Shown: piece by piece, positions 11,371-39,910 of the stretch
Numbering within the stretch: the stretch's first letter is position 1
Layout: every line of letters begins with the position of its first letter
Assembly (NCBI GenBank): GCA_019358985.1
Contig: JAHHIJ010000002.1
Location: 62,001 to 126,000, forward strand
Length of the DNA: 64,000 nucleotides
Direction of reading: 5' to 3'
Origin: Tolypothrix brevis GSE-NOS-MK-07-07A
Lineage (GTDB): Bacteria; Cyanobacteriota; Cyanobacteriia; Cyanobacteriales; Nostocaceae
Position numbers and translations under genes: made by a program
Notes under the pieces: model-generated
What the model was told of the DNA's origin: nothing
The model's input: only the letters and a program-made list of their open reading frames with translations
The model's database searches: none

Positions 11371-13761
11371 ATGGCAGACCAACTGACATCTGAATTGCCC
11401 AATCGCCGACTAACTGGTTTGCCGATTCAACGGTGGCAAATTTGCCTAGAAAAACCAGAAATTGCCCAACAACTGGCTGAATTGACAAATATATCGCCTA
11501 TTATCAGCCAATTGTTGATAAATCGCGGTATGGAAACAAAAGAACAAGTGCAAGCCTTTTTAGATCCAGAATCTTTAAATTTGCCATCACCACTGTCAGA
11601 ATTTCCAGATTTAGCGATAAGTTTAGAGCTGTTGGAGTCGGCGATCGCATCAAAAGAAAAAATCGCTATCTGTGGTGATTACGATGCAGATGGCATGACT
11701 AGCACAGCTTTATTGTTGCGTAGTCTGCGAACTTTAGGCGCAGATGTTGACTACGCTATCCCCAGCCGAATGCACGAAGGCTACGGCATTAATAAACGCA
11801 TCGTTGAAGAATTTGAGCAGGAAGGTGTTAAACTAATTCTCACAGTAGATAATGGGATCTCTGCATATGATGCGATCGCTTTTGCCAGAGAACTCAATCT
11901 AAAAGTAATTATCACCGATCACCACGACATCCCCCAACAATTACCGCCAGCTAACGCCATCCTCAACCCCAAACTCATAGCGGAATCGTCACCTTATCGC
12001 AGTGTTGCTGGTGTTGGCGTTGCCTATATTTTGGCGGTTTCTCTCGCACAAAAACTAGGACAAGCTAAAGGCTTAATTCAGCCGATGCTAGCACTTTTTA
12101 CATTGGGAACCATTGCAGACTTAGCCCCATTGGTAGGGGTCAACCGTCGATGGGTGAAACGTGGTTTACAACAGTTACCTAAATCTAAGTTAGCGGGAGT
12201 GCAAGCGTTAATTCAAGTAGCAGGAGTGGGAGCAGGGGACAAGGAGACAAGGGGAGTGGGGGACGAAGGAATTCATAACTCCTCATTCCTAAATCCTAAC
12301 TCCCGTAGAGACGTTCCGGCGGAAGGTCTCTACCCAAATACAGACGTTCCGGCGGAAGGTCTCTACCCAAATACAGACGTTCCGGCGGAAGGTCTCTACC
12401 CAAATACAGACGTTCCGGCGGAAGGTCTCTACCCAAATACAGACGTTCCGGCGGAACGTCTCTACCCAAATACAGAGGTTCCCCCGGAAGGTCTCTACCC
12501 AAATACAGAGGTTCCCCCGGAAGGTCTCTACCCAAATACAGAGGTTCCGGCGGAACGTCTCTACCCAACTCGTAACTCCTCAAATCCCAAATCTCTCAAA
12601 CCTGAGGATATCGGGTTTCGCTTGGGTCCGCGAATTAATGCGATTGGTCGGATTGGTGATCCGCAAATTGTGATAGACTTGCTGACAACTGATGATATGG
12701 GGATAGCGCTGGCAAGAGCGATGCAGTGCGAAGCGATTAATAAGCAACGACAGCAAATGTGCTCAGAAATTGAATTGGAAGCGATCGCCATTGTCGAAGC
12801 TGAATTTATCTCATCATTACAGCAAAACCGGGTATTAGTTGTTGTAAAATCAAATTGGCATCATGGCGTGATTGGTATTGTCGCCTCTCGCTTGGTGGAA
12901 CGCTACGGTGTGCCTGTGTTCATCGCCACTTATGAGGATGAAACACACATTCGTGGTTCTGCACGCGGAATTCCAGAGTTTAATGTGTTTGCAGCTTTGG
13001 AATATTGTCATGACTTGCTTGGCAAATATGGTGGACACAAAGCAGCTGGAGGATTTTCTTTCCCAGCAGAGAATTTGCCAGCATTGCGATCGCTATTATG
13101 TGAGTTTGCCAATAAATCTTTAGCACTTGAGCATATCAAACCATTAATCAAAATTGATGCCAAAGCAAACCTGAATGAAATCAAATCTCAACTTTATCAA
13201 CAGCTTAATGTCCTTCATCCCTGCGGTATCGACAACCCCGATCCGGTATTCTGGACGCCTGATGTCCAAGTAATTGAGCAAAAAATTGTTGGCAAAGGTC
13301 ACATTAAATTGACAGTGGCACAAATTATCGACAATCGACAATTTAAAATTAAAGCGATCGCTTGGCGTTGGGGTGACTACTTTCCCTTACCCTCAAAAGT
13401 AGATATCGCTTACAAGTTACGCGAAAATAACTTTAATGGCAGCACCACTATCGAGTTAGAATTAACAGGTGTCAGACTAGCAAAACAGTCTCACCTGTCT
13501 TTCACTTCAACATCTACGCCATCAAAAAGCACCTTTGAGTATAACCAACGCCACTATAGCTGTGGTATATATCAAAATGGTGAGTTACCAGAATTAAGAA
13601 TTAAAAACTCTGAAGGTAAAGTTCTCGCTGTTCAGCCAGGACAATCTAACGCTCTTTTAGGAACCAATCGCCAAGATGCTAAAATAGTTGATATTTCTCA
13701 ACCGCAGTATGACGGCATTATCCAAGCTGCTCTAAAGGCTTTAAAATCAGTTAAAAGTTAG
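11371..13761 (+). CDS. recJ: Single-stranded-DNA-specific exonuclease RecJ with in-frame repeat insertion
   Basis: A 5'-3' ssDNA exonuclease of recombination and mismatch repair. From ATG 11371 (MADQLTSELP) it is 796 residues; an in-frame GTG at 11356 adds five. DHH phosphoesterase motifs are intact: GDYDADGMTS, TVDNGISA and ITDHHDIP. DHHA1 is marked by HPRGSA-like IRGSARGIPEFNV and GGHKAAGGFSF, followed by an OB fold. Between ALIQVAG and the motif EDIGFRLGPRINA, which are close together in other RecJ proteins, lie about 110 foreign residues encoded by repeat DNA, including eight near-identical DVPAEGLYPNT units. The frame stays open throughout, so the protein is probably active with a surface loop expansion. 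Confidence 0.93.
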   Translation: MADQLTSELPNRRLTGLPIQRWQICLEKPEIAQQLAELTNISPIISQLLINRGMETKEQVQAFLDPESLNLPSPLSEFPDLAISLELLESAIASKEKIAICGDYDADGMTSTALLLRSLRTLGADVDYAIPSRMHEGYGINKRIVEEFEQEGVKLILTVDNGISAYDAIAFARELNLKVIITDHHDIPQQLPPANAILNPKLIAESSPYRSVAGVGVAYILAVSLAQKLGQAKGLIQPMLALFTLGTIADLAPLVGVNRRWVKRGLQQLPKSKLAGVQALIQVAGVGAGDKETRGVGDEGIHNSSFLNPNSRRDVPAEGLYPNTDVPAEGLYPNTDVPAEGLYPNTDVPAEGLYPNTDVPAERLYPNTEVPPEGLYPNTEVPPEGLYPNTEVPAERLYPTRNSSNPKSLKPEDIGFRLGPRINAIGRIGDPQIVIDLLTTDDMGIALARAMQCEAINKQRQQMCSEIELEAIAIVEAEFISSLQQNRVLVVVKSNWHHGVIGIVASRLVERYGVPVFIATYEDETHIRGSARGIPEFNVFAALEYCHDLLGKYGGHKAAGGFSFPAENLPALRSLLCEFANKSLALEHIKPLIKIDAKANLNEIKSQLYQQLNVLHPCGIDNPDPVFWTPDVQVIEQKIVGKGHIKLTVAQIIDNRQFKIKAIAWRWGDYFPLPSKVDIAYKLRENNFNGSTTIELELTGVRLAKQSHLSFTSTSTPSKSTFEYNQRHYSCGIYQNGELPELRIKNSEGKVLAVQPGQSNALLGTNRQDAKIVDISQPQYDGIIQAALKALKSVKS
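12222..12600 (+). repeat. In-frame insertion in recJ: eight 33-bp palindrome-derived tandem units
   Basis: Seven complete 33-bp units and one shortened unit run from 12310 to about 12568; each carries GACGTTCCGGCGGAA or the variant GAGGTTCCCCCGGAA plus GGTCTCTACCC. The flank 12222-12309 is itself a common interspersed repeat (GGGAGCAGGGGACAAGG type). All units are 11 codons long, so the recJ frame is preserved. The central unit at 12442 has the perfect palindrome, while most units have a G where the palindrome needs C. Confidence 0.9.
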
Positions 13762-37136: not shown

Positions 37137-38783
37137 GTGACATCATCTGTATTCGCTGCTGAACGCCTTTTATTCACTCCCACAACCCCCGACAACGACG
37201 CGATCGCCACAATTTTCGCTTTCCCCAATGAATACACTGTGGGAATCACTAGCTTAGGCTATCAGGTAGTTTGGGCAACTTTGGCAATGCGTGATGATGT
37301 GCAAGTGAGTCGCATGTTTACCGACACTCACGAACAACTTCCGAGAAAACCGGAATTAGTCGGCTTTTCGATGTCGTGGGAATTAGATTATGTGAATATT
37401 TTAAATCTGCTGGAATCTTTAGAAATTCCGATTACAACATCTACCCGTGATAATAATCATCCGATAGTTTTTGGTGGTGGTCCAGTTCTCACAGCTAACC
37501 CCGAACCTTTTGCCGATTTCTTTGATGTAATTCTACTCGGAGATGGTGAAGATTTATTAGGCAATTTTATTAACGCTTACAAAGAAGTTAGAAACGCTTC
37601 TAGAAAAATCCAATTAAAAGCACTTGCACAAGTACCAGGAATTTATGTTCCTAGTTTATATGAAGTTGAATATCACACATTAGATGGTGCTATCAAATCA
37701 ATTCAACCAATTTCTACAGAAATTCCCGCAATAGTGCAGAAGCAAACTTACCGAGGAAATGTTCTCTCAGCTTCAACTGTCGTCACCGAAAAAGCCGCTT
37801 GGGAAAATATTTACATGGTGGAAGTGGTGAGAAGTTGCCCAGAAATGTGCCGCTTCTGTTTAGCAAGTTATCTCACTTTACCTTTTAGAACTGCGAGTAT
37901 CGAAGAATCTTTAATTCCGGCAATCGAAAGAGGTTTAACTGTTACAAATAGGTTAGGATTATTAGGGGCTTCAGTAACTCAGCATCCCGAATTTGCATCG
38001 TTACTCGATTATATTAGTCAACCAAAATATGACGATGTACGCTTGAGTATTGCCTCGGTGCGAACTAATACAGTAACTGTCCAATTAGCGCAAACTTTAG
38101 CCAAACGAGACACGCGATCGCTTACCATTGCCATAGAAAGCGGTTCGGAAAAATTACGCGAAATCATTAACAAAAAGCTGCATAATGATGAAATCATCCA
38201 AGCTGCGGTAAATGCCAAAGCTGGAGGCTTATCTAGTTTAAAACTTTACGGCATGGCAGGAATTCCCGGCGAACAATCAGAGGATTTAGAGCAAACTGTG
38301 GCAATGATGCGTGCTATAAAAAAAGCTGCTCCTGGATTGCGGTTAACACTAGGATGTAGCACCTTTGTACCCAAAGCACACACACCTTTTCAATGGTTTG
38401 GAGTAAATCCCCAAGCTGAGAAGCGGTTGCAATTTTTACAAAAACAACTAAAACCACAGGGAATAGATTTTCGCCCAGAAAGTTACAATTGGTCAATAAT
38501 TCAAGCTTTGTTGTCACGAGGCGATCGCCGACTTTCTCCGCTTTTACAATTAACTCGTAACTTTGGCGATTCTTTGGGTAGTTACAAACGTGCTTTCAAA
38601 CAACTCAAAGGACAAATTCCCGACTTAGATTTTTACGTTCACGCCGACTGGTCAACCGAACAAATATTACCCTGGAGTCACTTGCAAGGACCTCTACCAC
38701 AGTCTACACTAATTAAACACCTGGCTGATGCCACCAGTAAATTTAACTCGCCTACAAAGGAATTACAGCCATTAAATTTATAA
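37137..38783 (+). CDS. B12-binding domain/radical SAM protein
   Basis: A 548-residue protein. The N-terminal part (about 25-175) resembles a cobalamin-binding Rossmann domain without the canonical DxHxxG (GGGPVLTANPEPFADFF, LLGDGEDLLG). The radical SAM core (about 215-430) has the 4Fe-4S motif CPEMCRFC (C-x3-C-x2-C) and a GLSSLKLYGMAGIPGEQSED segment. Homologues are conserved in cyanobacteria; the reaction is unknown. It starts with GTG. No partner gene is adjacent. Confidence 0.82.
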   Translation: MTSSVFAAERLLFTPTTPDNDAIATIFAFPNEYTVGITSLGYQVVWATLAMRDDVQVSRMFTDTHEQLPRKPELVGFSMSWELDYVNILNLLESLEIPITTSTRDNNHPIVFGGGPVLTANPEPFADFFDVILLGDGEDLLGNFINAYKEVRNASRKIQLKALAQVPGIYVPSLYEVEYHTLDGAIKSIQPISTEIPAIVQKQTYRGNVLSASTVVTEKAAWENIYMVEVVRSCPEMCRFCLASYLTLPFRTASIEESLIPAIERGLTVTNRLGLLGASVTQHPEFASLLDYISQPKYDDVRLSIASVRTNTVTVQLAQTLAKRDTRSLTIAIESGSEKLREIINKKLHNDEIIQAAVNAKAGGLSSLKLYGMAGIPGEQSEDLEQTVAMMRAIKKAAPGLRLTLGCSTFVPKAHTPFQWFGVNPQAEKRLQFLQKQLKPQGIDFRPESYNWSIIQALLSRGDRRLSPLLQLTRNFGDSLGSYKRAFKQLKGQIPDLDFYVHADWSTEQILPWSHLQGPLPQSTLIKHLADATSKFNSPTKELQPLNL

Positions 38784-39252
38784 TTTTTTCAACGTTGCTG
38801 AATTAAGACATGAAATTCCTAACTCATCAGACATAGGCGTAGAAACTAATTATGCGTTGCCCGAAACCCTTGATAGACGTAGCATTGCTACGTCTCTACG
38901 TATGACTCTGGAGATGTCTATCGTAAAGACGTTCCGGCGGAACGTCTCTACCATCAGGAAAAATTTTGAAATTAAAATGCAAACAACTATCGTAAAGACG
39001 TTCCGACGGAACGTCTCTACCATCAGGAAAAATTTTGAAATTAAAATGCAAACAACTATCGTAAAGACGTTCCGACGGAACGTCTCTACCGTCAGGAAAA
39101 ATTTTGAAATTAAAATGCAAACAACTATCGTAAAGACGTTCCGACGGAACGTCTCTACCGTCAGGAAAAATTTTGAAATTAAAATGCAAACAACTATCGT
39201 AAAGACGTTCCGACGGAACGTCTCTACCATCAGGAAAAATTTTGAAATTAAA
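38784..39252. other. Repeat-filled spacer before the CPXCG gene
   Basis: A MITE (about 38835-38920, palindrome 38873-38899) joins directly to a 69-bp tandem array (38920-39263). There is no other gene. Confidence 0.8.
38835..38920. mobile_element. MITE with GACGTAGCATTGCTACGTC and GATGTCTA end
   Basis: The interior TAATTATGCGTTGCCCGAAA, then CCCTTGATAGACGTAGC, and the right end CTCTGGAGATGTCTA match the other copies; the left end is diverged (ACATAGGCGTAGAAAC). It abuts the 69-bp array. Confidence 0.7.
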
Positions 39253-39263
39253 ATGCAAACAAC
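38920..39263 (+). repeat. Five tandem 69-bp units that include a start codon
   Basis: Units begin at 38920, 38989, 39058, 39127 and 39196. Each holds the palindrome GACGTTCCGACGGAACGTC (GGCGG in the first), an AT-rich leader and ATGCAAACAAC, the first codons of the downstream gene. Because 69 is divisible by three, the frame stays open through all five units and each ATG could start an extended protein with 23-residue repeats. Confidence 0.93.
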
Positions 39264-39441
39264 ATCTGAATTTTACTGCGCTTATTGCGGGGAACCAAAC
39301 GTAACCTTTGTAGACTTGAGTGCAGGAGGACAGCAATCTTATATAGAAGATTGTCAAGTTTGCTGTCGTCCAAACATTCTATATCTGCGGGTGGATGAAG
39401 AAACTTTAGATATAGAAATTGATACAGAATATGAAGGTTGA
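39253..39441 (+). CDS. CPXCG motif-containing cysteine-rich protein
   Basis: A 62-residue zinc-ribbon-like protein (MQTTSEFYCAYCGEPN then EDCQVCCRPN), i.e. two C-x2-C pairs expected to bind one metal ion, with an acidic C-terminus. It corresponds to the small CPXCG family of unknown function. The conserved start is the last of five in-frame ATGs generated by the 69-bp array; translation from earlier ones would add 23 residues per unit. There is no clear Shine-Dalgarno close to any of them. Confidence 0.78.
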   Translation: MQTTSEFYCAYCGEPNVTFVDLSAGGQQSYIEDCQVCCRPNILYLRVDEETLDIEIDTEYEG

Positions 39442-39460
39442 ATTTTAGGTTTTTCTGTCA

Positions 39461-39910
39461 ATGCTTCACTTTAAACATTCTTCAGTAATTAATGCACCGG
39501 TAGAAGTTGTTTGGAAATTTCACGAAAGACCAGATATTTTACAACTTCTTACCCCACCTTGGCAACCAGTACAAGTGATGCGTCGCGAGGGGGGACTTGA
39601 CGTTGGTGCGATTACCGAATTTCGGCTTTTCTTGGGATTATTACCTTTAACTTGGTTAGCGCGTCACACCGAATGTGAAGAATATCGTCTATTTACCGAC
39701 GAACAGATATCAGGTCCATTTGAATCTTGGGTGCATCGACATGAATTTGAACCAGAAAATGGCAAAACTAAATTAACTGATGCGATCGCCTTTTCAATGC
39801 CAGGTGGCGATTCTGTAGAATTTTTCAGCGGTTGGCTAGTGCAAGCACAACTAGAAGCAATGTTTCGCTACCGTCATTATGTAACTAAACGAGAGTGCGA
39901 GTCAAGTTAA
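39461..39910 (+). CDS. SRPBCC family protein
   Basis: A 149-residue START-like lipid- or ligand-binding protein: HSSVINAPVEVVWKFHERPD at the N-terminus, FRLFLGLLPLTWLARHTEC in the sheet, ISGPFESWVHRHEFEP, and a C-terminal amphipathic helix. The ligand is unknown. It lies 19 bases after the CPXCG gene in the same direction, so the two probably form an operon ended by the terminator at 39970. Confidence 0.82.
   Translation: MLHFKHSSVINAPVEVVWKFHERPDILQLLTPPWQPVQVMRREGGLDVGAITEFRLFLGLLPLTWLARHTECEEYRLFTDEQISGPFESWVHRHEFEPENGKTKLTDAIAFSMPGGDSVEFFSGWLVQAQLEAMFRYRHYVTKRECESS

Follow-up and report, generated by a model that had tools for sequence, protein, structure and literature searches.

How does a gene come to carry its own start codon five times over in a single reading frame, and what, if anything, do the extra copies do for it? 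In the 64-kb window analysed here (the whole stretch of DNA, 64,000 nucleotides), the question is raised by a small plus-strand gene encoding a CPXCG cysteine-rich protein (39253..39441; 62 aa from the last ATG). The product matches the Pfam family Cys_rich_CPXG (PF14255) with 82 bits against a gathering cut-off of 25.2, over residues 8-58 of 62, and its orthologues align from the Met encoded at 39253. The CPXCG protein is presumably a zinc ribbon, the term used in a preliminary description of this locus. A radical-SAM gene lies upstream on the same strand (37137..38783), and in many relatives its 3′ end can be recognised by eye immediately 5′ of the CPXCG start; a polyketide-cyclase/dehydrase-family gene follows downstream, also on the plus strand (39461..39910).

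Anatomy of the array and its open frame

Tandem Repeats Finder (TRF) delimits the array at 38918-39263, with a period of 69, 5.0 head-to-tail copies, 98% matches and a score of 671. Every unit is built in the same order: CTATC, a 29-nt palindrome with one mismatched pair (GTAAAGACGTTCCGRCGGAACGTCTCTAC), an AT-rich leader (CRTCAGGAAAAATTTTGAAATTAAA) and finally ATGCAAACAA, which closes the unit and contains the start codon. On the plus strand, unit 1 occupies 38918..38986 (palindrome 38923-38951, ATG 38977), unit 2 38987..39055 (ATG 39046), unit 3 39056..39124 (ATG 39115), unit 4 39125..39193 (ATG 39184) and unit 5 39194..39262 (palindrome 39199-39227), the last of these carrying ATG 39253, identified below as the ancestral start. 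The end of each hairpin lies 25 nt upstream of its ATG. Variation among the five units is confined to 2 of the 69 columns: from the first unit to the last, column 20 reads G, A, A, A, A and column 36 reads A, A, G, G, A. The five-unit 69-bp array that repeats a start codon five times in frame is confirmed as an observation, and the preliminary description was equally correct on the unit anatomy, present in all five copies, and on a unit length that is a multiple of three (69 = 3 x 23).

The unit ATGs are spaced 23 codons apart, and the first stop in their frame is TGA 39439-39441. The open frame is continuous across the array (38857..39441, plus strand; 194 codons from TTG 38857) and includes ATG 38902 and ATG 38914 on the 5′ side of the array. 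Because these two precede the five unit ATGs, the frame holds seven ATGs, besides the TTG; the earlier count of five candidate starts in one continuous frame is right for the units and too low for the frame as a whole. A second palindrome (38875..38899, plus strand) lies just upstream of the array and, as read from the sequence, consists of AGACGTAGCATTGCTACGTCT followed by CTAC, with the core TAGCATTGCTA and similar ends.

The assembly is a draft of 74 contigs, and the unit number might be an artefact of it. However, two variants distinguish the units from one another, the array lies within a 297-kb contig, and the same genome shows many further resolved arrays, each with a spacer of its own, so that a wrong unit number created by the assembly is hardly credible.

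Orthologous loci and the ancestral start

The CPXCG protein was detected in 40 of the 59 genomes searched, the source genome counted, and gave no match in the other 19, among them the incomplete congener G003. The 62-residue protein is identical in two genomes of the same genus, Plectonema radiosum NIES-515 (G004) and G002, and 98% identical in Spirirestis rafaelensis WJT71 (G001). At the G004 locus there is one palindrome, a leader as in the source genome and a single ATG, upstream of which the frame is open for 23 codons without a further ATG. A degenerate palindrome and a similar leader are discernible by eye in G001; G002 has a different upstream sequence without the palindrome and a chance in-frame ATG 24 codons upstream.

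We extended the comparison to 110 orthologous loci, 106 of them distinct after removal of 4 duplicates, with the source locus included. A start-repeating tandem array is present at 1 of these 106, the source locus only; at L050 a 14-bp repeat spans the CPXCG start, and ATG is absent from its consensus unit. With one unit in G004 and one array in 106 loci, the last ATG (39253) is therefore the ancestral start. Judged by sequence comparison, the change from one unit in G004 to five in the source genome, which are two different species, is specific to the source lineage among the genomes compared.

Tandem repeats of other kinds also occur in this spacer. A repeat with a 7-bp period lies at most 600 bp upstream of the CPXCG start at 24 of the 106 loci (for example L028, L032, L057, L075 and L109), and some of these repeats supply in-frame ATGs. 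In-frame upstream ATGs are found at 12 of the 106 loci (source included), several within 7-bp tandem repeats. The spacer upstream of CPXCG orthologues seems prone to tandem repeats. The plasmid collection yielded no match at megablast sensitivity.

The palindrome family and its other arrays

The palindrome core occurs at 20 sites in the window with at most 3 mismatches, compared with 0 in 100 shuffles, and a 21-nt core is found genome-wide at 715 sites with at most 2 mismatches, compared with 0 for a reversed control pattern; chance does not account for these matches. Exact copies of a 19-nt core are most numerous in the source genome (492), followed by G004 (151), the incomplete G003 (88), G002 (55) and G001 (17); of the 54 genomes that belong to other genera, 5 have 1-5 copies. 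Read on the minus strand, the palindrome starts with GTAGAGACG and ends with CGTCTTTAC, with GTAG at one end, most of which pairs with the other end (GTAG with TTAC).

In pattern searches the palindrome heads many further tandem arrays throughout the genome, each with a private spacer. We examined 21 of these, comprising 20 loci picked by eye in a non-exhaustive selection and one more array in the window; Pfam scans at array loci took in 7 + 10 proteins, a part of the array-touching open frames. Main periods at the 21 arrays range from 29 to 133 bp. Two of the 21 lie inside genes and in frame: an array in recJ (window 12309-12568; 33-bp unit, 8 copies), situated between the DHH and DHHA1 domains, and an 8-copy, 45-bp palindrome array inside a GAF-PAS-cyclase gene (L119:1493-1855). 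Another two clearly repeat the 3′ end of a gene that Pfam supports, stop codon included; the repeated stretch measures 41 nt for an aldehyde-dehydrogenase-family gene (L120:1508-1848) and 18 nt for an HpcH/HpaI gene (L131:1373-1781), so neighbouring gene sequence has been captured elsewhere too. Among the arrays examined, the CPXCG array is the clear case in which the captured gene end is a 5′ end. At L126:1414-1579, a possible further case of start capture, a 41-bp palindrome array with an internal TTG at 1448 continues without a stop into an ABC-transporter frame at its 5′ side; a period of 41 cannot keep the frame from unit to unit, the Pfam domain begins at residue 95, and a later in-frame ATG is present. 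L125 was rejected as a repeated gene end, because its 7 nt amount to 3 nt of flank and a stop codon that comes from the palindrome.

Array growth is apparent when these loci are compared with the congeners. The 33-bp recJ array is absent from all 9 other genomes searched, whose recJ open frames measure 701-747 aa versus 824 in the source genome. The recJ site carries eight units in the source genome and a single in-frame palindrome in G004; the single palindrome of G002 has a different core, as has that of G001, to which an extra half copy is added; the frames are open. The aldehyde-dehydrogenase-family gene has two imperfect palindromes in G004 versus five in the source genome, and the HpcH/HpaI gene has one palindrome with another core in G004 versus seven units. 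Fewer palindromes in G004 than in the source genome is the outcome at all 4 loci compared, CPXCG included, in a non-random choice of loci. Because the single G004 palindrome at recJ and at HpcH/HpaI differs in its core, growth from that exact copy is not established at those two genes. Congener palindromes at one site (L139-L142 in the recJ linker; L155-L160) have common ends, approximately GTA.AGACG...CGTCT.TAC, and differing cores, and the sequences look as if the cores at occupied sites had been exchanged.

Elhai and colleagues reportedly described small dispersed repeats in Nostoc in 2008. Filamentous cyanobacteria carry very short elements of this kind in many copies, and the present palindromes resemble them by description. 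The palindromes also resemble the GTAG super-family of REP clusters, which PMC3733652 describes as short high-copy dispersed palindromes, found in filamentous cyanobacteria too, with large clusters reiterated in tandem together with flanking DNA (section 5). As in GTAG REPs, the palindrome falls within 20-40 bp (29 nt here) and has many dispersed copies (715 core sites), and tandem clusters that include flanking DNA occur at many loci. Unlike in those elements, the GTAG end is here mostly paired and not clearly a one-sided tag, the two being likened by description and not by consensus sequences, and the repeated flank holds the start codon of a gene. The origin of the CPXCG array is well explained if a REP-like palindrome has been amplified together with its flanks across this lineage, the array being one case; REP clusters are already known to behave in this way (PMC3733652). 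Rickettsia palindromic elements, as outlined in PMC3767692, sit within genes and leave the frame intact. The recJ and cyclase-gene arrays are like them in lying inside genes with the frame kept, a likeness of description and not of sequence, but here the arrays are tandem, and the CPXCG array precedes the conserved 62-residue protein rather than lying inside it.

A frame-keeping period is not unusual among these arrays. Periods divisible by three occur at 6 of 19 non-genic arrays when one period is taken per locus, which is the chance share, and in 9 of 25 cases when the additional TRF rows for these loci are counted; the periods of both arrays inside genes (recJ, 33 bp; L119, 45 bp) are of this kind as well. 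The six frame-keeping arrays outside genes offer 36 frames, of which 24 are open; in the CPXCG 69-bp unit 3 of 6 are open. From the 6/19 periods and the 24/36 open frames, an open, frame-keeping array is therefore expected without selection about once in 5-6 (chance ~0.2). The five CPXCG units are all without a stop or frameshift, an absence that has little power given 98% identity among units.

We give a probability of roughly 0.78 to lineage-specific tandem growth of a REP-like palindrome together with its flanks, which at this locus captured a start codon, the last ATG being the ancestral one. A dispersed REP-like palindrome would have arrived, presumably by insertion, about 25 nt before the CPXCG start. 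The palindrome, the leader and the first ~10 coding bases would then have been duplicated in tandem, taking one unit to five, through replication slippage or a duplication provoked by the palindrome. The resulting array would be nearly neutral and the last ATG would still be in use, with some leaky initiation at upstream ATGs yielding forms of 85, 108, 131 and 154 residues. The array itself, the one-unit state of the congener and array growth at other loci are direct observations, and the start codon was probably duplicated by accident as the repeat expanded. A counter-point is that a coding role would likewise predict a unit whose length is a multiple of three and which has no stop in the frame of the gene, as is the case here.

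Upstream ATGs, their accessibility and possible products

We computed an opening energy, the cost of opening positions -18 to +15 around an ATG. The four upstream unit ATGs have values of 5.5-6.6 kcal/mol and the last (39253) 3.9-5.1 kcal/mol; at the CPXCG ATG of the congeners the energy is 4.2-5.0 in G004, 7.1-7.7 in G001 and 3.4-3.9 kcal/mol in G002, and at the pre-array ATGs (38902 and 38914) it reaches 13.7-19.6 kcal/mol. On these values the array does not seal its starts. It had been proposed that the hairpin before each ATG may control translation; with each hairpin 25 nt away and each unit ATG reachable, the computation speaks against such control. Folding of the leader RNA, which had been put forward as a check, does give a stable structure for the whole leader (-118.6 kcal/mol, z -7.3), with units paired mutually. 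Tandem palindromes give such folding automatically, so we draw no conclusion about function from it. Folded by itself, the last unit is likewise more stable than its shuffles (z -3.0), owing to the palindrome.

The lowest opening energy among the unit ATGs belongs to the last, which is also the conserved start, and both facts would suit an array that is simply untranslated leader, its upstream ATGs never used by transcript or ribosomes and serving only to mislead annotation. However, the gap in opening energy is just 0.7-2.7 kcal/mol and varies with the length of the folded flank, and the unit ATGs are alike both upstream (bar the two variable columns) and over 10 bases from the ATG. Ribosomes would therefore have little means to discriminate among them if the RNA includes them, and we regard a wholly untranslated array as a serious but doubtful alternative to tandem growth with leaky initiation.

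The preliminary arithmetic of zero to four 23-residue N-terminal repeats is correct: the upstream unit starts, if used, add one to four repeats to the 62-residue protein and give the four longer forms (85 to 154 residues). The extra repeats are basic, each adding about 5 positive charges by computation, so that the computed net charge at pH 7 is -11.5 for the 62-residue protein but +8.5 for the 154-residue form, and the computed pI rises from 4.05 to 9.51. In the AlphaFold model a single long helix (residues 2-90) spans the four repeats and precedes a five-stranded domain, with a mean pLDDT of 85.2 and a pTM of 0.38; as 0 of the 31 aligned relatives have the length to reach across the repeats, we give the helix little weight. 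The array may let the CPXCG gene yield proteins of several lengths. It is a long shot that all five nested starts are used, producing a ladder of CPXCG proteins with 0-4 basic, perhaps helical repeats in which slippage would shift whole in-frame rungs, a rheostat of length and charge made from a dispersed palindrome.

Hardly likely either is a natural tuning device, as the preliminary description proposed, in which five hairpin-gated starts would let the number of units govern dosage or protein length and selection would maintain that number. What speaks for it is anatomy: the near-identical upstream context of five unit ATGs in one open frame, the shift in net charge that the repeats would bring and the long predicted helix. 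Against it stand the presence of the array at a single orthologous locus in 106 and of one unit in G004, the spread of array growth through the genome without a general tie to start codons, a frame that is kept at near chance, hairpins that barely alter computed accessibility from 25 nt away, and a helix prediction with low pTM and no aligned relatives beneath it. We find the proposal unsupported.

Repeat-tract phase variation of the Haemophilus lic genes, where 4-bp units shift the frame, offers a partial parallel, as repeat number near a start codon could here too change which start gives the product. The 69-bp units keep the frame, unlike the 4-bp lic units, so there is no on/off switch. 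In the accessible portions of the open-licence literature, we found no direct precedent for repeated in-frame starts, for alternative-start tandem repeats or for a lic-type equivalent.

If tandem growth of the palindrome is the right reading, the locus is a clean snapshot of how amplification can drag a translation start along and thereby produce, in a single event, both nested starts in one frame and novel repeats at the N terminus; the congener G004 retains the one-unit state. Start-capturing palindrome amplification is a plausible source of proteins with N-terminal repeats. The locus is also a caution that start-codon annotation in repeat-rich cyanobacteria can pick the wrong start.

Candidate promoters inside the unit were unconvincing, being four matches at 9/12 that represent one motif four times, against a shuffle mean of 2.0. 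No intrinsic terminators were found on the plus strand of 38700-39500. Five terminator-like sites, compared with a shuffle mean of 0.6, are all on the minus strand; the palindromes of units 2-5, whose tail is weakly T-rich, account for four.
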